The notes below the pieces were generated by a model. That model had not been told where the DNA came from. It was given only the letters and a program-made list of their open reading frames with translations, and did no database searches. The position numbers were made by a program, and so were the translations under genes. Positions 3,429 through 18,666 of a stretch of 64,000 bases of DNA are shown one piece after another. Numbering within the stretch: the first letter of the stretch is position 1; each line of letters opens with the position of its first letter. The DNA is from Bacteroidota bacterium (GTDB taxonomy: Bacteria > Bacteroidota > Bacteroidia > Cytophagales > Cyclobacteriaceae). Location: NCBI GenBank assembly GCA_024280115.1, contig JAJRQT010000185.1:1-64000 (forward strand), written 5' to 3'.

Positions 3429-3874
3429 ATTATTTTGTTTTTAACTAAATAACGCCTACTCTTTTATAGATTTTCGGTTTTCTCTATTTTTTTCTAATGA
3501 ATTTCAACAATATTGGCATATATCGAATCTGAGGTATTTATTCACCCTATTTTTTAGTTTAAATCTAACGAATTGTGGAGACATTGCATACTGATTATTG
3601 CATTAATCATCATACAGGCCTGTCCTACTTTGTATATTGTCTATTGTTAATCGCATGTTGTGGTAAAGCTGCTAAGCATGGCGCCCGCATAGTTTAACCC
3701 AAATGCTCCAAACTATAGATCGCTTCGTTCCTCGCAATGACGTTCGGGGCTTAACTTACTGACAATTCTAAAATCATTAACGTTCAACATAATCTATTAT
3801 TGATAATTGAAACAAAATGGCCTATATTCCATAAAACTTTATCAACAATGATTTCGCAACTTTCTTTAAAATCA
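3429..3874. other. intergenic region with one dispersed repeat
   Basis: No gene seen. The only recognisable content is a short dispersed repeat near 3713-3742, listed separately. It serves as the divergent upstream region of the aldehyde dehydrogenase and the beta-helix lipoprotein. I see no clear promoter consensus. Confidence 0.5.
3713..3742. repeat. short dispersed repeat (GCGAGGAACGAAGCGAT type)
   Basis: On the minus strand this reads GTCATTGCGAGGAACGAAGC followed by GATCTATAG, a sequence type I recognise as a widespread dispersed intergenic repeat in many bacterial genomes. Only one copy is in this window. Confidence 0.5.
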
Positions 3875-5932
3875 ATGCCCTTAAAAATCAGGCAGCTAAC
3901 GATTGCGCTATTTCTCCTCTCCTCCATAGTGGCCTGCTCCCCCGAGCAAAATTATTTTATTTCGCCGGATGGCAATGACCAGAATGATGGCACCATTGAT
4001 CAACCTTTTGCCACGCTTGAACGGGCTAAAATTGCGATTAAAGAGGCTGCCGAAAAACCAGTCACCATCTTTCTTCGGGAAGGTTACTACCAACTTCAAC
4101 AATCTTTTGTTTTAACAGGAACCGATGTACCGGGCAATATACCTGTTTTAATTTCCGCCTACCCCGGAGAGGAAGTCCACCTGATCGGTGGTCGGGAAAT
4201 CAAAGGCTTTAAAGCAATGGATGAACAATCAAAAGCCGGCAAACAAATAAAACCAAAATATCATCATCAAATTTTACAGATAGATCTAAGAGCCCTGGGA
4301 ATTAGTGAATACGGAGAAATGTCGGCCAGGGGATTTGGCAAACCTATTCAGCCTTCAGGCCTGGAATTGTATTTTGATGAGCGGCCTATGACCCTCGCCC
4401 GCTGGCCCAATGACGAATGGGCAACAATTGGGGAAGTCCCTGAGGCACTAGATGGGAAAGGTTTTATTTACTCGGGAAACAGACCTTCAAGCTGGCTCGG
4501 AGCGCCGGATATCTGGCTACACGGCTACTGGAAGTATGATTGGGCAGATACTTATGTAAGCATAGCTGATATAGATACGCTTGAAAAGGTGATAATTTCT
4601 GAAACCCCATCCGGATATCCCTACACAAAAGGCAAGCGCTTTTATGCACTTAACCTGCTGGAAGAGCTTGACACTCCCGGTGAATGGTACCTGGATCGCG
4701 CAACTGGCATCCTATATTTCTGGCCGCCATCAGATCCTGAGAATGTAAAAATATTCGTCTCCTTATTGAAGGAGCCACTCATACAATTGAAAAATACGAG
4801 CAATGTTGCCATTAAAAACCTGACACTGGAATATAGCTGTGGCGGTGGAGTTGAAATCATTGGCGGATCAAATAATGTGATAAAAGATTGTACACTGAGA
4901 AACATGGGAACAGTGGCTGTGAGCATTGGAAAGTTGGAGGGCAACATCAGCGGCCTGATCTATAATAATACTCTTTATAACGGAGATGCCGGAACGGGAA
5001 ATGGTGTGTCCGGTTGCACCATCCACACTACAGGCGAGGGCGGTGTTATGCTTGGAGGAGGTGACAGAAAAACGCTGACACGGGGAAACAATTATGTCGA
5101 GAACAGTGATATTTACAATTCTTCGCGATGGGTGCGCACCTATCGTGCAGGTATCTTCATGTATGGCGTGGGCAACATCGTGAAACATAATGAAATTCAT
5201 GACCTGCCACATACCGCGGTATTTTTCTGGGGAAATGACCATCTCATGGAGTACAATGAGATTCATCATGTGTGCATGGAAACCGGGGATGCAGGCGCTT
5301 TCTATAATGGCCGCGACTGGACCCAACGCGGCAGCATGATCCGGCACAATTATTTTCATCACCTGCACGGGGTAGAAGGCCAACAAGGCTGGAATGAGGT
5401 AATGGCCATTTACCTTGATGACTGGTCGAGTGGCGCTACGATATTTGGAAATATTTTCTACAAAGCCGGTCGCAGTATCATGATTGGTGGTGGCAGGGAC
5501 AATATCGTAGAAAATAATATTGTGATAGACGGACAGCCGGCTGTGCATGTAGATGCGCGGGGCCTGGGCTGGGCAAAATACTATTTCAATGGAGGTGACA
5601 GCACACTTTTCAAACGGCTTCAGGCCATTCATCCCCTGGATCCACCATATAGTGAACGCTATCCACAGCTTGTTAATTTGCTCGAAGATGATCCTGTCCT
5701 GCCCAAGGGAAACAGATTTTTGCGAAATATCAGCTCCGGCGGCAGATGGATAGATTTGCTGAATGGTGTCAATGATACGCTGGTTTATTTTCAGAATAAT
5801 CAAATCGACCTGGATAACTCATTTTATACTATTGAAGAAGATAGCTACAGGTTAAAATTTGATGCTGACATGTATCCGCCAGGCTTTCAGGCAATTCCTT
5901 TTGAAAAAATAGGCTTGAATGCAACTGATTAA
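3875..5932 (+). CDS. right-handed parallel beta-helix lipoprotein
   Basis: A secreted lipoprotein of about 685 residues. I chose the ATG at 3875 because it begins directly with a lipoprotein signal peptide (MPLKIRQ, hydrophobic core, lipobox SIVAC). Upstream in-frame ATGs at 3800 and 3848 would add an odd leader. After the Cys comes the SPDGNDQNDGTIDQPFATLE opening typical of parallel beta-helix carbohydrate-active proteins (DUF1565/Beta_helix type). It is followed by short beta repeats with many N/G turns (NNVIKDCTLRN, HNEIHDLPHTAVFFWGND, EYNEIHHVCMETGDAGAFYN), concentrated around residues 310-560. Such proteins bind or cleave polysaccharides at the cell surface, but the catalytic type cannot be named from sequence alone. 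A sugar-type Gfo/Idh/MocA oxidoreductase follows on the same strand. Confidence 0.8.
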   Translation: MPLKIRQLTIALFLLSSIVACSPEQNYFISPDGNDQNDGTIDQPFATLERAKIAIKEAAEKPVTIFLREGYYQLQQSFVLTGTDVPGNIPVLISAYPGEEVHLIGGREIKGFKAMDEQSKAGKQIKPKYHHQILQIDLRALGISEYGEMSARGFGKPIQPSGLELYFDERPMTLARWPNDEWATIGEVPEALDGKGFIYSGNRPSSWLGAPDIWLHGYWKYDWADTYVSIADIDTLEKVIISETPSGYPYTKGKRFYALNLLEELDTPGEWYLDRATGILYFWPPSDPENVKIFVSLLKEPLIQLKNTSNVAIKNLTLEYSCGGGVEIIGGSNNVIKDCTLRNMGTVAVSIGKLEGNISGLIYNNTLYNGDAGTGNGVSGCTIHTTGEGGVMLGGGDRKTLTRGNNYVENSDIYNSSRWVRTYRAGIFMYGVGNIVKHNEIHDLPHTAVFFWGNDHLMEYNEIHHVCMETGDAGAFYNGRDWTQRGSMIRHNYFHHLHGVEGQQGWNEVMAIYLDDWSSGATIFGNIFYKAGRSIMIGGGRDNIVENNIVIDGQPAVHVDARGLGWAKYYFNGGDSTLFKRLQAIHPLDPPYSERYPQLVNLLEDDPVLPKGNRFLRNISSGGRWIDLLNGVNDTLVYFQNNQIDLDNSFYTIEEDSYRLKFDADMYPPGFQAIPFEKIGLNATD

Positions 5933-6284
5933 TCCGGCGCTGAACAGTAAGTAATTGAATCCACTCCGAATGTTAAAACACTCCTAAATCCCTTAAAGGC
6001 CCGCCTGCGGCTGGCAGATTTAATGGAAGTTGTTTCAAAAAGACTGAAGTCAGAAATCAGCAGACCGAAGTATTAGATGTTGAGAATCCTAAAAAATTGG
6101 AAACCAGAGTTTTTAACCATTTCCCCATCTGTCATAATTCGCAAACTTAACTTCCGACTCTGGGCTTCTGTCTTCGGACAAATCATTATTTCAATTAAAT
6201 TAACAGTAAAAGCATAATTCTTATTGGCAAGATATCTTGAATATTAGAGAATGGTTTTGGATATTAGACAAAACACCTATAACT
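5933..6284. other. intergenic, short GC-rich and word-like repeats
   Basis: About 350 bases without a gene. They contain the GC-rich fragment CCCGCCTGCGGCTGGCAG near 6000 and degenerate words such as GACTGAAGTCAGAAATCAGC and ACTTCCGACTCTGGGCTTC (6040-6180). Words of the same style recur near 27210. No promoter or terminator was recognised. Confidence 0.5.
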
Positions 6285-7655
6285 ATGAAAAAAATTCACA
6301 GAAGAACATTCGCAAAAAAAGCCGCTGCTGCATCCTTAGCCTTGACAACTGCACCTTATATTTTCGGTAAAAACAGTAATTGGAAAGGCGCAAATGACAG
6401 ATTAAATGTTGCAGTCATTGGCATTCATGGCATGGGGCAATCGCATATAAAATCCTACAATGAATTAAAGGATGTTCATGTTGCCGCCATTTGCGATGTA
6501 GATGAAAATCTTTTTGAAGAAAGAATCCGGAAACTTTTTATTGACAAGGGAATTCAAAAACCAAAAATTTACACAGACCTAAGAAAGCTATACGAAGACA
6601 AAGATATCAATGCGGTTTCGATCACCATGCCAAATCACTGGCATACACTGGCTGCTATTTGGGCCATACAAGCCGGTAAGCATGTATCGGTAGAAAAACC
6701 ATGCTGTCATACATTTCATGAAGGGCAAAAGCTACTGGAAGCCGCGAATAAATACAATGTGATCGTTCAGGATGGCGCCGAACAGCGCAGCAATCCATGT
6801 GCACAATCAATGGCAGATTACCTGCATACCGGTAAACTTGGTGAGGTTTATTACGGAAAGGCGATGTGTTACAAAAGAAGAGATACCATCGGGCATACTC
6901 CAAATGAACCCGTCCCCGATGGTGTACACTACGACTTATGGATGGGTCCCGCCCCGGAAAAACCATTTTCGCAAAACAGGTTTCACTACAACTGGCATTG
7001 GCAGTGGGATTACGGCAATGGAGATATGGGCAACCAGGGCGTTCACGAGATGGATGTAGCGCGTTGGGGATTAAATGTCGGTTATCCAACCAAAATTACT
7101 TCTACAGGAGGGCATTTCATGTTCGATGATGACCAGGAAACGCCAAATACACAGATTTCCACTTTCGAATTCGATAACCCAAAAGGAAAAGGAGCAAAGA
7201 AAAAGATGCTCGTTTTTGAAGTGCGGCATTGGGACCATAATTTAGAAGGATTCTCCGGTAGAAAAAAAGATGATGATGGCGGATATATGACAAGCAGCGC
7301 CAACACAGTTGGTAATATTTTCCTGGGTTCTGAGGGATTTATGTTAAAAAATGTTGACAAATGGGAAACATTTCACGGTAAGGAAAGAACACCTGTTACG
7401 AGTGGAAGTGGTCTAGGCAATCACTATTTAAATTTTACTGAAACCATCAGAAATAATGACCCAAATCATTTGAATGGAAAAATTGAAGAAGGCGTGAAAT
7501 CCTGCTCATTGATACATTTGGCTAATATATCATATCGTCTGGGCCGAAGTCTCGAATTCGACCCTGTTTCCAAAAGATTTAAAGGTGATGAAGAGGCCAA
7601 TGCTATGCTGACCAAAAAATACAGGGCTCCATATGTGGTTCCGGAAATGGTGTAG
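6285..7655 (+). CDS. Gfo/Idh/MocA family oxidoreductase, Tat-exported
   Basis: A 456-residue NAD(P)-dependent oxidoreductase of the Gfo/Idh/MocA family, which oxidises or reduces sugars and cyclitols. The start at 6285 is preferred because it gives a twin-arginine signal (RRTFAKKAAAAS, then an Ala-rich segment ending near PYIFG). The Rossmann motif VAVIGIHGMGQSH follows, then ITMPNHWHTL and the family's EKP motif in SVEKPCCHTF. The closing NAMLTKKYRAPYVVPEMV is typical of the secreted Bacteroidota/Planctomycete branch. A twin-arginine leader implies folding with cofactor before export. It follows the beta-helix lipoprotein, which fits a small surface or periplasmic sugar-processing locus. A second paralogue lies at 30255-31532. 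Confidence 0.87.
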   Translation: MKKIHRRTFAKKAAAASLALTTAPYIFGKNSNWKGANDRLNVAVIGIHGMGQSHIKSYNELKDVHVAAICDVDENLFEERIRKLFIDKGIQKPKIYTDLRKLYEDKDINAVSITMPNHWHTLAAIWAIQAGKHVSVEKPCCHTFHEGQKLLEAANKYNVIVQDGAEQRSNPCAQSMADYLHTGKLGEVYYGKAMCYKRRDTIGHTPNEPVPDGVHYDLWMGPAPEKPFSQNRFHYNWHWQWDYGNGDMGNQGVHEMDVARWGLNVGYPTKITSTGGHFMFDDDQETPNTQISTFEFDNPKGKGAKKKMLVFEVRHWDHNLEGFSGRKKDDDGGYMTSSANTVGNIFLGSEGFMLKNVDKWETFHGKERTPVTSGSGLGNHYLNFTETIRNNDPNHLNGKIEEGVKSCSLIHLANISYRLGRSLEFDPVSKRFKGDEEANAMLTKKYRAPYVVPEMV

Positions 7656-8645: not shown

Positions 8646-10550
8646 ATGGGCCAAAAAACAGTATCCATTATTTCCAATAGTAAAGACAAGGAACGCTTTG
8701 TTAAGTACCTCTTAAATGACATCAAAGCCCTTGAAATCATGATTGAAAAAGACATGATAGAAAAGGGCAAAAATAGAATTGGCGCTGAACAGGAACTTTG
8801 CCTTGTCGATGCAACATGGAGACCTACACCAATCATTTTAGACATTCTTCCTAAAATAAACGATAAACATTTTACTACCGAATTGGCAAAATTCAACCTT
8901 GAAATCAATCTTGATCCAATTGAATTCAAAGGGAATTGCATTTCTAAACTTGAGGAAAATTTGCTCAAGTATATCAATAAGGCAGAAAAAGTACTGAGTG
9001 AACAAAATGCCAAAGTTATCCTTACCGGAATACTGCCAACAATCAGGAATAAAGATCTCAACATTTCAAATATGACCCCACTGGAGCGGTATTATGCACT
9101 TGCAAATAGTCTCAGTAATCTCAGGGGCGGTCAATTTGAATTCCACATCAGTGGCACCGATGAGCTGATCACTGCCCATGATACAGTGATGTTCGAAAGC
9201 TGCAATACCTCCTATCAATTGCATTACCAGGTATCATCGGATCAATTTGTTGATCTTTATAACTGGGCACAATTGATTTCCGGTCCGGTCCTCGCCTCCT
9301 CGACCAACTCACCAATTCTATTGGGCAAAAGACTCTGGAGAGAGACGCGAATCGCACTCTTCCAGCAATCCATTGACAGCAGACAATCAAATGATCACCT
9401 GCGGGAAAGAAGCTGCAGGGTCTCCTTCGGTAACAGGTGGATTTATGATTCAATCGTGGATGCATTTAAGGAGGATATTGTGAGATTTGAAACTTTGCTC
9501 AGCAACGATGAAAAGACCAATTCCCTGAAGATGCTGGAAGAAGGGGAAATTCCTACATTGGACGCCTTGCTCGTGCATAACAGTACCATTTATAAATGGA
9601 ACAGGCCATGCTATGGAATCTACGATGGAAAACCACATTTCAGAATAGAAAACAGATACTTTGCTTCCGGTCCAACCATACCCGATCAGGTTGCCAATGC
9701 TGCATTTTGGTTTGGGCTGATGTCTGGAATGCCGGAAGAATTCAAAAATATCCAGAACAAATATGAATTTGATGATGCTAAGACAAATTTCTTAAAAGCG
9801 GCCAGAGATGGGTTAGACAATAAATTTCTATGGATTGATGGTATAAAATACAGTGGTCAGGATCTGATATTAAAAATATTGATTCCTATTGCAAAAGAAG
9901 GGCTCCATAGAGCAAAAATTAAAAAAGAGGACATTTCGAAAAATCTTGGGATCATCGAAGAAAGAGTGAAATCCGGGATGACCGGCTCGCAGTGGATGTT
10001 AGACTCTTACAGTAATTTAAGGAAAAATGGCACAAGGGATCAGGCGCTCGTCGCAACCACGGCTGCTATTTATAACAGGCAAAAAGAAATGAAACCAATA
10101 CACGAGTGGAGCCTTGCCAATATCGATGAGGCTGGAAATTTCCTGAATTATTATTTACATATCGATCAGATCATGAGCACTGATATTGTGACGGTTATGG
10201 AAGATGATTTGATTGATCTGGTCGCAAATATTATGGATTGGAAACAGGTAAAAGATGTGCCTGTTGAAAATGATAAAGGAGAACTAGTAGGATTGATGAC
10301 TGCCGGACTTTTAGTGAATTTTTTATGTAAAAGCAACAAGGAAAAGAAAATCAATTCCAGGATCAAAGACTTTATGATAAAAGACCCGGTATCCGTTTCT
10401 CCCGAGACGAGTATATCAAATGCCCTGAAAACCATGATCACACTTAAAGCCAGCTGCCTGACTGTTGTTCAGGATAAAAAACTAATTGGAATGGTTACAG
10501 ACCGTCATTTTGTGAAGGTTTCCGCAAAGCTGATCAGAGATTTAAAATAA
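8646..10550 (+). CDS. glutamate-cysteine-ligase-like enzyme with C-terminal CBS pair
   Basis: A 634-residue cytoplasmic protein. The first 470 or so residues are a glutamate-cysteine ligase fold (GCS2 type): the acidic metal/ATP-binding motif IGAEQE at 45-50, FNLEINLDP, GGQFEFHISG, SYQLHYQV and RSCRVSFG follow in the expected order. The enzymes of this fold join an amino acid to the gamma-carboxyl of glutamate, or an amine to another acid, using ATP. The last 125 residues are two CBS domains (about 510-570 and 573-634), which usually sense adenine nucleotides and regulate the attached enzyme. The next gene encodes an aspartoacylase/succinylglutamate-desuccinylase-like hydrolase, so a ligase/hydrolase pair acting on a gamma-glutamyl or N-acyl compound is likely. 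The actual substrate is unknown, and it should not be assumed to make glutathione. Confidence 0.82.
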   Translation: MGQKTVSIISNSKDKERFVKYLLNDIKALEIMIEKDMIEKGKNRIGAEQELCLVDATWRPTPIILDILPKINDKHFTTELAKFNLEINLDPIEFKGNCISKLEENLLKYINKAEKVLSEQNAKVILTGILPTIRNKDLNISNMTPLERYYALANSLSNLRGGQFEFHISGTDELITAHDTVMFESCNTSYQLHYQVSSDQFVDLYNWAQLISGPVLASSTNSPILLGKRLWRETRIALFQQSIDSRQSNDHLRERSCRVSFGNRWIYDSIVDAFKEDIVRFETLLSNDEKTNSLKMLEEGEIPTLDALLVHNSTIYKWNRPCYGIYDGKPHFRIENRYFASGPTIPDQVANAAFWFGLMSGMPEEFKNIQNKYEFDDAKTNFLKAARDGLDNKFLWIDGIKYSGQDLILKILIPIAKEGLHRAKIKKEDISKNLGIIEERVKSGMTGSQWMLDSYSNLRKNGTRDQALVATTAAIYNRQKEMKPIHEWSLANIDEAGNFLNYYLHIDQIMSTDIVTVMEDDLIDLVANIMDWKQVKDVPVENDKGELVGLMTAGLLVNFLCKSNKEKKINSRIKDFMIKDPVSVSPETSISNALKTMITLKASCLTVVQDKKLIGMVTDRHFVKVSAKLIRDLK

Positions 10551-11778
10551 TTTTTATAATAAATTCACAGACATCGAAACTCCGCTACAACAAAAATCAC
10601 TGAAAAGAATAATTGGATCTTACCAGGGAAATAAGGAAGGTCCAAATCTCGTCTTTTTTGGCGGTATCCATGGCAATGAATATTCGGGCATTCATGCGCT
10701 CATCGATGTCATTGATGCGCTCCATAATCTTAAACCCGATTTTAAAGGGAACATATATGCTATTGCAGGTAATTTAAAAGCCATTAATGAAAATAAAAGA
10801 TTCTTAGGTAAAGATCTCAACAGGATCTGGTTTCCCAATACCATGATCCCAAAAGAAGAAAGATCTCATATCCCGGAATACAAGGAGAAAATAGAGATTT
10901 TAGATCAATTAATTGAGATTCTCAGAAATGGTAAACCAACCTATCTGTTTGACCTCCATACCACCTCATCGCACAGTATGCCATTTATCTCGATAAGCGA
11001 CACATTGAAAAACAGAAAGATTATCCAAGGTCTGCCTGTTCACCTGGTACTGGGTCTGGAGGAATTGCTCGATGGCCCGATGTTCAGTTTTTTCAGTGAG
11101 CTTGGGCTCCCGGCTGTTTTGTTTGAAGCCGGTCAGCATGACGCTATTTCTTCATTAGAAAATCATATCGCTTTCATTTGGATGATCCTTGCCCGGTTAA
11201 AATGTATAAAGAAAAAATCCATCACGGATTATCAACAATTCCGGCAAACACTTAAAAAAAATAATCCCACAGGTCAGCAAACATTTGAAATAAAATACCG
11301 GTATCTCATTAAAAATAATGAGCAATTTAAAATGAAGGATGGGTTCGTGAATTTTCAGGCATTGAAAAAAGGGACATTGATTGCGACCAACAAAGATGGA
11401 AAGATAAAAAGTTCAATGAACGGCTTTATTTTTATGCCCTTATATCAATCTCAGGGTTGCGATGGATTCTTTATTGTCAAAGATATCGCGAGAGTCTGGC
11501 TTAGATTTTCTTCAAGAACCAGGAAGTGGAAGCTGGACAAATCGCTCAAACTATTGCCGGGAATAAGTAAATCAGCCAAAGGTCAGGATACCTATGTGAT
11601 CGATAAAAGCATTGCCAAATGGCGTGTAATATCGCTTTTGCATTTGCTTGGGTATCGCAAAGTAAGAGATAACGGTCAAACCCTTACAATGTCAAGAAGA
11701 CCTTATGACTCCAGATTTCCCAAAGCGAATAAAGTCCTCGAAAATTTCATTAAATACCAAAAACTCCTCAATAGTTAA
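10546..11778 (+). CDS. aspartoacylase/succinylglutamate desuccinylase-like zinc hydrolase, start codon missing
   Basis: A zinc hydrolase of the AstE/AspA family (M14-like), which removes acyl groups from N-acyl amino acids. The zinc ligands are visible: HGNE at 10669-10680 and DLH at 10951-10959, followed by LPAVLFEAGQHD. The first ATG in frame is at 10843, downstream of the HGNE motif, so it cannot be the true start. Homology-like sequence (FTDIETPLQQKSLKRIIGSY) extends up to about 10561, and the frame is open from 10546, but it holds no ATG, GTG or TTG. Inserting one G after 10560 would create ATG AAA TTC in the correct frame, so a one-base deletion in the start codon is the simplest explanation. 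It lies directly after the GCS2-CBS gene, effectively overlapping its stop, and was probably co-translated with it. The last 170 residues are a family-specific extension of unknown role. Confidence 0.75.
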   Translation, partial: NNFYNKFTDIETPLQQKSLKRIIGSYQGNKEGPNLVFFGGIHGNEYSGIHALIDVIDALHNLKPDFKGNIYAIAGNLKAINENKRFLGKDLNRIWFPNTMIPKEERSHIPEYKEKIEILDQLIEILRNGKPTYLFDLHTTSSHSMPFISISDTLKNRKIIQGLPVHLVLGLEELLDGPMFSFFSELGLPAVLFEAGQHDAISSLENHIAFIWMILARLKCIKKKSITDYQQFRQTLKKNNPTGQQTFEIKYRYLIKNNEQFKMKDGFVNFQALKKGTLIATNKDGKIKSSMNGFIFMPLYQSQGCDGFFIVKDIARVWLRFSSRTRKWKLDKSLKLLPGISKSAKGQDTYVIDKSIAKWRVISLLHLLGYRKVRDNGQTLTMSRRPYDSRFPKANKVLENFIKYQKLLNS

Positions 11779-11929: not shown

Positions 11930-12480
11930 TGTCTGAATCTCTGAAAACTTTGTACCTCTGGACCTTTGAACCTCTGAACCTTTGAACCCTTGACGCCTGA
12001 AATATGAAATAAGGAATAAGGAATCAATGTCGTTTAGTTAAGAAGATAATTGTCTTACCTCTCCCTTCACCCTCTCCAGAGAGGGATAATAGGAGCTTAA
12101 ATAAACGACATTGAATAAGGAATAAGAGACAATAGCCCAGAACCACTTGACCTTATAAACCTTTGAACCTTGAAACCTGAAATAAGAAATAAGGAACATG
12201 AAACCAGAGCCCAGAACCACTAAACCTTTGAACCTTTGAACTCCTGAACTCTTAAACCCCGATGTCTGAAATATGAAATAAGGAATAATAAATAAGAAAC
12301 ATGAAACCAGAGACAAGAGCCCAGAACCCAGAACCACTTGACCTTATAAACCTTTGAACCACTTTTGAACCATTGAACCCTGAAATATGAAATAAGGAAT
12401 ATGAAACCAGAGCCCAGAACCCAGGACCCAGAACCTATAACCCCTAAACCTTTGAACCCATGAACCCTTTATCCCCCCAA
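11930..12480. repeat. degenerate word-like direct repeats
   Basis: About 550 bases made of recurring short words: AACCTTTGAACC, GAAATATGAAATAAGGAATA and AGAGCCCAGAACC, in changing order and with small errors. No gene is supported; a minus-strand open frame of 99 codons here is just these repeats read through. A MITE-like element (12025-12113) is embedded. Similar words occupy the other side of the following permease gene (15004-15163). Confidence 0.75.
12025..12113. mobile_element. MITE-like element, copy 1
   Basis: An 89-base element with inverted terminal repeats: it begins CAATGTCGTTTAGTTAAG and its other end reads CAATGTCGTTTATTTAAG on the opposite strand. The interior carries a small hairpin (CCCTCTCC/AGAGAGGG). 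A second copy with the same ends and interior is at 35772-35882. It has no coding capacity, so it would need transposase supplied elsewhere. Confidence 0.7.
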
Positions 12481-17815: not shown

Positions 17816-18172
17816 TTACCTCCTTTTATCCCCTTGTTTAAAAAATTCGACATTTATCTTTTCTTTGGTAATCAGGCTACCATAACGGATTTTCTCAAAC
17901 CAGGGCTGAATTTTATCTAAAAATCCATCAATTTCTTTTTCCTTCCCGATAATTTCAATGACCACGGGCAGTTTTTCACTTAATTCCCAAAGATTAACAG
18001 AATGAATCACACTGCTCGAACCAAAACCCATTACACCTTTTAGTACGGTAGCACCGCCCAATCCGTAACGCTTTGCTGCAAAAACAATCATTTCATATAA
18101 TGGTGAATGCTTGAATTTATCGGTATTGCTGATATAAATCTTCAATAGTGTTGCTTCCCCTTTGGCTATCAT
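17816..18172 (-). CDS. DUF190 domain protein
   Basis: A 118-residue cytoplasmic protein of the DUF190 family. The features are LLKIYISNTDKFKHSPLYE at the start, the glycine-rich AKRYGLGGATVLKGVMGFG in the middle and PVVIEIIGKEKEID near residues 69-82. The fold is thought to resemble PII-like signalling proteins. It starts two bases after the crcB stop codon, so the two are certainly co-transcribed and probably translationally coupled. This pairing with fluoride channels is common and suggests a role in fluoride tolerance, possibly regulating the channel. That role is an inference. Confidence 0.87.
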   Translation of the reverse strand: MIAKGEATLLKIYISNTDKFKHSPLYEMIVFAAKRYGLGGATVLKGVMGFGSSSVIHSVNLWELSEKLPVVIEIIGKEKEIDGFLDKIQPWFEKIRYGSLITKEKINVEFFKQGDKRR

Positions 18173-18174
18173 AA

Positions 18175-18552
18175 CTAAAATGTTTTTGAAATTAAACTTC
18201 CTGAAAACACGGCTAACAGTCCTAAAAATATCGTCATTCCGGTATATACGGCAAACAGGAAAAAACTTCCTTCTTTCAATAAAGCTAAATTCTCATTGGC
18301 GAAAGTAGAAAATGTAGTGAAGCTGCCGCAAAAACCCACCGCCAGGAATAATCGCCATTCATAATCAAAAAAACTTAATCGCTCTGATAAACCAAATAAA
18401 AAACCTATCAGCAAAGAACCAAGAATATTGACAATAAAGGTTCCCCATGGAAATGCGGATAGTACATTATTTTGAACATACAGGGAAACGAGATACCTCA
18501 GCACTCCCCCAAAAAAACTACCTGTCCCAATGATTAATATTGTTTTTAACAT
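18175..18552 (-). CDS. crcB: fluoride ion channel CrcB/Fluc
   Basis: A 125-residue, four-helix inner-membrane protein of the Fluc family, which lets toxic fluoride leave the cell as a dual-topology dimer. Diagnostic motifs are GGVLRYL near the start, PWGTFIVNILGSLLIGFLFG, and the GFCGSFTTFSTFANE segment whose Phe and Thr side chains line the pore in characterised homologues. I use the ATG at 18550-18552. An earlier in-frame ATG at 18624 adds 24 residues without homology. No fluoride riboswitch is visible upstream. The gene is followed two bases later by DUF190. Confidence 0.92.
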   Translation of the reverse strand: MLKTILIIGTGSFFGGVLRYLVSLYVQNNVLSAFPWGTFIVNILGSLLIGFLFGLSERLSFFDYEWRLFLAVGFCGSFTTFSTFANENLALLKEGSFFLFAVYTGMTIFLGLLAVFSGSLISKTF

Positions 18553-18666
18553 ATGCCTGTTATTGCCGGAATATTTGAGAAAAAATATATATGCAAGGTA
18601 ATCGGTTTTTAAATTAAATATCAAAAGCCGAGAAGCATTTGTTTAGAATTCATTTTAGGAGGAAAT

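Follow-up and report, generated by a model that had tools for sequence, protein, structure and literature searches.

Genes for GCS2-like ligases have been found beside those for a thiol peptidase or an Aig2-type gamma-glutamyl cyclotransferase, and the passages of PMC2588565 dealing with these neighborhoods predict the synthesis of glutathione or related peptides. Here, we describe a two-gene unit in a 64,000-nt stretch of DNA from a member of the Bacteroidota (family Cyclobacteriaceae; contig JAJRQT010000185.1 of assembly GCA_024280115.1; hereafter, the window), in which a ligase with a GCS fold and a pair of CBS domains is followed directly by an AstE/AspA-like zinc hydrolase. The neighborhoods in PMC2588565 likewise place a GCS-like ligase beside an enzyme able to break gamma-glutamyl compounds; however, the partners differ, and those passages make no mention of CBS domains or of a hydrolase of the AstE/AspA type. 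The folds and superfamilies of both proteins are known, and we found no description of their two-gene arrangement in the literature; our search for a paper on the pair covered titles and the beginnings of abstracts, with subscription journals thinly represented, and is weak evidence of novelty.

Several other known systems resemble parts of this unit. The YbdK/GCS2 family (PF04107) shares its fold and the GhExE motif with the window ligase, which differs in scoring below the family cut-off and in having a C-terminal CBS pair and an adjoining hydrolase. The plant glutamate-cysteine ligase (PDB 2gwc), with a chain of ~450 residues and no CBS part, is 19% identical in a structural alignment; the genome of the window has no match to GshB. 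AstE, aspartoacylase, and EutE/DoeB (PF24827) have zinc- and carboxylate-binding residues and a fold (structural similarity Z scores of 19-23) in common with the window hydrolase, which nevertheless falls far under the curated models for AstE and aspartoacylase. RimK-RimB type glutamylation with GCS2 neighbors was reportedly described by Iyer et al. in 2009; such units combine a ligase and an AstE/AspA-like hydrolase, as observed here, whereas the unit in the window contains no RimK and the strong RimK matches of its relatives lie elsewhere in their genomes.

Ligase and hydrolase of the two-gene unit

The ligase gene was confirmed on the forward strand at positions 8,646..10,550 as an open reading frame (ORF) of 634 amino acids. 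Pfam searches, AlphaFold2 modeling, and structure searches divided its product into a GCS-fold part (residues ~25-480) and a CBS pair (residues ~504-630), as the initial annotation had proposed. The predicted structure, for which 44 sequences were used, had a mean predicted local distance difference test (pLDDT) score of 91.1. Structural comparison of the model aligned residues ~25-480 with YbdK (PDB 1r8g) at a Z score of ~36 over 348 residues, and Z scores of 31 (over 377 residues) and 29 were obtained for the plant and yeast glutamate-cysteine ligases, respectively. The score for Escherichia coli GshA was ~20, well below those of YbdK and the plant ligase. The initial annotation had named a ligase pocket identical to that of canonical GshA as a refuting observation; at the level of the whole modeled fold, no such identity was seen. 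PafA and Dop shared the fold at Z scores of 18-19.

The sequence match of the ligase to GCS2 (PF04107) was 17.5 bits, under the 21-bit cut-off for family membership. A PF04107 search of the own genome gave no match at E 0.001. In none of the members tested did the catalytic part of the GCS-fold ligase score above a curated Pfam or NCBIfam cut-off. The GhExE-type motif is present as G-A-E-Q-E at residues 46-50, and G46, E48, and E50 were invariant in all 44 rows of a wider alignment. GhExE is defined as the metal-ATP motif of the GCS2/carboxylate-amine ligase superfamily in the passage of PMC2588565 on this motif; since both the motif and the GS/GCS fold are present, the window ligase belongs to this superfamily. 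Twenty motif residues of the ligase were identical in 44/44 rows of the same alignment, the positions having been selected among columns that an earlier alignment had shown to be conserved.

When the ligase profile was searched against the sequences of solved structures, CBS-containing chains filled the best 60 of 145 rows, and structure comparison was therefore used instead. In a direct profile alignment with the plant ligase 2gwc (local E 2.7e-4, probability 42%; global E 3.3e-6, probability 75%), GAEQE stood opposite GTEHE and R148-Y149 opposite the arginine of KGRYDIM; GTEHE, RRED..P..RY, and NSP of the plant enzyme were alignable. R148 was invariant in the 44 rows. The KGRYDIM arginine (R219 by our count, otherwise numbered R220) is a glutamate-binding residue, and the second glutamate-binding arginine of the plant ligase fell outside the reliable part of the alignment.

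The CBS pair of the ligase (residues 504-630; approximately 10,155..10,535, forward strand) matched PF00571 in two stretches with 66 bits against a cut-off of 24, and residues 501-634 aligned structurally with CBS pairs such as AcuB (Z 17-20). Position 621 in the second CBS domain (CBS2), which follows G-h-h-T/S and is presumably ribose-binding and usually Asp, was Asp or Asn in 35 of the 44 ligase rows. Binding of an adenine nucleotide, or of a different ligand, by the CBS pair probably tunes the synthesis.

The hydrolase is encoded on the forward strand by a stop-to-stop frame of 410 codons (10,546..11,778), and this full frame matched AstE_AspA_cat (PF24827) with an E value of 2.9e-16 and a score of 60 bits (cut-off, 25 bits). 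The initial annotation had recognized an aspartoacylase-like hydrolase directly behind the ligase, which stands; however, the start that it used, the first ATG of the frame at 10,843, is wrong; the frame is open from 10,546. The version from 10,843 to 11,778 misses the first zinc motif and gave no family match over the cut-off. No ATG, GTG, or TTG occurs in the frame before the HGNE zinc motif. The best candidate start is the CTG at 10,600..10,602 (forward strand), which in a by-eye alignment stood opposite the ATG of two relatives, L036 (MSRIIG) and L038 (MERILG), so that translation probably covers 10,600-11,778; other start codons of translation table 11, such as ATC at 10,573, may be used. 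We compared 17 paired relatives for the point at which the hydrolase frame first offers an ATG, GTG, or TTG: this codon overlapped the ligase in 15 of them and followed it at distances of 2 and 6 bp in the remaining two. A fusion of the two proteins by a -1 frameshift was considered and rejected: upstream of the ligase stop codon, T-TTA-AAA looks like a slippery site, but the hydrolase frame is +1 relative to that of the ligase.

The predicted hydrolase structure (AlphaFold2; mean pLDDT 91.6) resembled the succinylglutamate desuccinylase AstE (Z 23), EutE/DoeB (Z 21), aspartoacylase (Z 19.7), and the cyanophycin dipeptide hydrolase CphZ (PDB 8ein and 8eip; Z 18.3). According to its entry title, CphZ binds beta-Asp-Arg, which is an isopeptide; the window hydrolase is only 14-16% identical to it. 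The curated models for AstE (TIGR03242; 50.4 versus 305.65 bits) and aspartoacylase (NF002601; 46.3 versus 180 bits) were not reached. Compared with aspartoacylase, the window hydrolase has no Arg in residues 177-193, where we take aspartoacylase to place its substrate Arg, and compared with AstE and aspartoacylase, the long form has an extra ~75-80 residues at the C-terminus. The motifs HGNE (residues 42-45), DLNR (90-93), DLH (136-138), and FEAG (193-196) were found, and E45, H138, R85, D90, N92, R93, and E194 were kept in all 26 hydrolase rows, H42 in 25. We take these eight residues to be the zinc ligands, the carbonyl- and carboxylate-binding residues, and the catalytic Glu. Judged from the sequence, they would suit the cutting of an amide whose amine side bears a free carboxylate, such as a gamma-glutamyl or N-acyl amino acid.

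Conservation and neighborhood of the pair

To describe the distribution of the pair in the phylum, we used an even set of 296 genomes that were not picked for ligase content. The ligase was found in 88 and the hydrolase in 49 of them. The hydrolase lay directly behind the ligase in 42 of the 49, counting ligase places only in genomes with a hydrolase match, and five more shared a genome with an unlinked ligase. Thus, 47 of 49 hydrolase genomes carried the ligase compared with 88 of 296 overall (Fisher p 1.5e-27, uncorrected for relatedness); green sulfur bacteria among the 88 were counted as lacking the hydrolase, since their own hydrolase fell below the search threshold.

In the window's own family, 84 of 98 genomes matched the ligase query, many through the CBS part only, and 54 ligase places were located in 45 genomes. 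The hydrolase was searched in 50 of the 98 genomes, 45 chosen for their ligase and five ligase-free, and it was matched in 43 of the 50 and in none of the five. Among the 48 hydrolase places with E < 1e-20 (six weaker ones were left out), 41 immediately followed a ligase in the same orientation, and the gaps between the matched ranges of the pairs were -2 to 76 bp, with one of 434. When up to ~9 kb on each side was inspected, 18 of 21 family loci were paired. The initial annotation had asked whether the pair is conserved and which genes co-occur, and had named rare adjacency of the homologs as a sign that it was mistaken. Adjacency proved to be common, and the hydrolase is the one recurrent companion; no other gene family occurred in more than 6 of the 21 loci or at a constant place (ORFs of <80 amino acids were not called). 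ScpB, pseudouridine synthase, and PriA near the loci of Balneolaceae were considered as further partners; they look like ordinary housekeeping neighbors. These results show that the pairing of hydrolase and ligase is real, conserved, and far beyond chance.

Within the phylum sample, there was one family whose ligase matches ended before the CBS domains. The bacteriochlorophyll A protein family was present in 6/6 of the genomes with a CBS-less ligase that were tested and in 0/9 others, which identifies the former as green sulfur bacteria. All five green-sulfur loci inspected (L131-L135; for example, L134:3590-6168) contained a CBS-less ligase followed by a hydrolase, within ~30 bp or overlapping, indicating that the CBS domains are not essential to the pair. 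The hydrolase of L134, the sole green-sulfur hydrolase compared with Pfam, belongs to PF24827 (3.9e-9) and is weakly similar to the window type (profile E 2.8e-11); those of the other four loci are 45-47% identical to it. Ligases of this kind are therefore found, in separate pairings, with two markedly different members of one hydrolase superfamily. The five genomes are relatives, and their pairing counts as one event. A scan of viral contigs with a green-sulfur ligase found no relative.

A wider set of 80 named loci, the best of at least 583 and including members of the window's family, contained 26 with an adjacent hydrolase, one with a hydrolase near downstream, one near upstream, 41 with none among the four called ORFs on either side, five at a contig edge, and six unscored because the simple ORF caller lost the ligase. 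One of the unscored loci, L068, has a hydrolase ~30 bp behind the ligase, which brings the adjacent loci to 27. The paired loci came from records of Bacteroidota, Balneolota, Calditrichota, Planctomycetota, Acidobacteriota, Gemmatimonadota, and Binatota, many of them metagenome-assembled genomes. A tree of 81 ligases was built from the window, 43 of the 80 named loci, 18 of 20 further loci, and 19 of 20 family loci; L133 and L150 (no called ligase) and L031 (a copy of L052) were left out, and L060 was labeled unpaired although its hydrolase sits one small ORF away. The window-type hydrolase label required 16 changes on this tree, compared with a mean of 26.5 after shuffling.

Gamma-glutamyltranspeptidase genes were found directly behind the ligase in L121 (L121:6926-8611) and L128 (L128:2454-4172), and upstream of it, separated by one or two genes, in L057 (L057:1700-3256) and L061 (L061:1008-2591); the identity was assigned by Pfam in L057, L121, and L128 and by blastp cluster only in L061. 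These neighbors are a weak pointer to gamma-glutamyl chemistry. Two tandem ligase paralogs precede the hydrolase in the Balneolaceae loci L057 (L057:5001-8872), L061 (L061:5001-8871), and L063. In a Binatota hydrolase (L091:3220-4359), LGNE occurs in place of HGNE, with Leu replacing the first zinc-binding His; this protein may be inactive or mis-sequenced.

Elsewhere in the window, a low-complexity stretch behind the hydrolase (11,932-12,480) contains degenerate TTTGAACC-like and GAAATATGAAATAAGGAA repeats, and all three copies in the genome of an exact 18-base unit of this stretch are located there. Positions 3,800-7,655 on the forward strand encode a right-handed beta-helix protein with a sub-threshold match to the GH141 insertion domain, followed by a Gfo/Idh/MocA oxidoreductase. 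Adjacent small ORFs at 17,816-18,624 on the reverse strand presumably encode a DUF190 protein and a CrcB-type fluoride channel, which they resemble by eye.

Possible reactions of the pair

Conservation gives good support to the idea of a ligase acting together with a hydrolase; the chemical details are more conjectural. We infer gamma-glutamyl chemistry and a metabolite shared by the two enzymes, and give an evenly balanced chance to the favored proposal that a gamma-glutamyl ligase and an amide hydrolase make and break one compound. In this proposal, the ligase would spend ATP to convert the side-chain (gamma) carboxylate of glutamate or a similar acid into an acyl phosphate, with which the amino group of a second molecule, most probably an amino acid or another amine that bears a free carboxylate, would then be coupled. 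Amides of this type would be split into their two parts again by the zinc hydrolase from the next gene, and synthesis would respond, through the CBS pair of the ligase, to a ligand such as an adenine nucleotide.

A number of observations weigh against this proposal. Alignment of the ligase with E. coli YbdK alone by hhalign gave no useful result, and the specificity of the ligase for glutamate is putative. Position 621 of CBS2, Asp in 24 and Asn in 11 of the 44 rows, is His in the window ligase, and control by energy state, as proposed in the initial annotation, is therefore only inferred. The window hydrolase has no common start codon, and that of the nearest relative, L051, whose ligase is 79% identical to that of the window, is split into two frames (L051:7077-8298) near a run of five G; L051 also has an enlarged gap behind the ligase, and TTG codons with no ATG at the place of the hydrolase start. 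Both L051 pieces are homologous to the window protein (65% and 55% identical), and the differences at the three codon positions were 0.30/0.17/0.63 and 0.37/0.27/0.67, respectively. Since third-position differences exceeded those at the first and second positions in both pieces, the hydrolase gene has been under purifying selection; recent decay in the window/L051 lineage, or an assembly error, may account for its condition.

The distribution of the genes also includes opposing points. Two of the 49 hydrolase genomes in the phylum sample had no ligase and five had it unlinked, and several of the family and phylum hydrolase matches run through a stop codon. Distant relatives are under-sampled among the 80 named loci, 41 of which had no AstE/AspA-type hydrolase nearby; thus, the ligase often works without it. 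On the tree of 81 ligases, the paired or unpaired state required 17 changes, and the link to gamma-glutamyltranspeptidase concerns only 4 of the 80 loci.

Since the nearest solved folds are YbdK and the eukaryotic glutamate-cysteine ligases, the ligase might be a glutamate-cysteine ligase that makes the thiol gamma-glutamylcysteine, with the hydrolase recycling the product; we consider this improbable. The own genome has BshC, of the bacillithiol route, and no match to the ATP domain of GshB (PF02955), other kinds of glutathione synthetase not having been searched, which makes glutathione an unlikely product. Green sulfur bacteria carry the ligase, and Chlorobaculum tepidum was once proposed to make glutathione, yet its extract contained none and its thiol was N-methyl-bacillithiol, as stated in the passages of PMC6282198 on this organism, which leave gamma-glutamylcysteine unsettled. 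Cysteine is therefore disfavored as a substrate of the ligase. There is a similarly small chance that the pair modifies a protein or peptide, adding and trimming glutamates in the manner of RimK-RimB or PafA-Dop. PafA and Dop share the fold; however, the ligase is far closer to ligases of free amino acids (Z 29-36), and no other gene family recurs in more than a few of the family loci. The absence of RimK beside the pair, noted in the initial annotation, was borne out, as PF08443 had no match on the window's contig. The sole match in the genome at E <=0.001, on another contig (C185), speaks for the protein or peptide reading; it was partial (25-85 of 188; E 1.6e-4; 23.3 bits, slightly above the cut-off of 21) and may represent another ATP-grasp enzyme. 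A full RimK was not found in this assembly, which is 95% complete in 236 contigs. As judged by eye, full-length RimK matches of relatives (E < 1e-60) either sat on a different contig from the ligase or were 90 kb or more away from it, and a weaker ATP-grasp match in one relative, G013 (E 1.1e-17), was ~38 kb away. RimK was accordingly rejected as a neighboring partner, none being near the pair in the own genome or in relatives.

The hydrolase could also belong to a shared pathway in which its substrate is some other N-acyl amino acid rather than the ligase product; we regard this as unlikely. The AstE/EutE/aspartoacylase group, with which it folds, deacylates N-acyl amino acids, and many ligases have no hydrolase; on the other hand, nearly all hydrolase genomes of the phylum sample (47/49) carry the ligase, and the green-sulfur ligase has as its partner another AstE/AspA-type hydrolase, distinct from the first. 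Such a repeated association would mark a real reaction partner.

If the pair does make and break a gamma-glutamyl compound, this metabolite would be absent from current maps of these bacteria. More tentatively, and as a possibility in which we have rather little confidence, the pair may represent a widespread, previously undescribed gamma-glutamyl metabolite cycle in bacteria without a glutathione route, in which a ligand-controlled ligase and a dedicated zinc hydrolase were brought together at least twice, with one hydrolase recruited in Bacteroidota and allied phyla and another in green sulfur bacteria. The two-gene unit makes the idea of such a metabolite directly testable.

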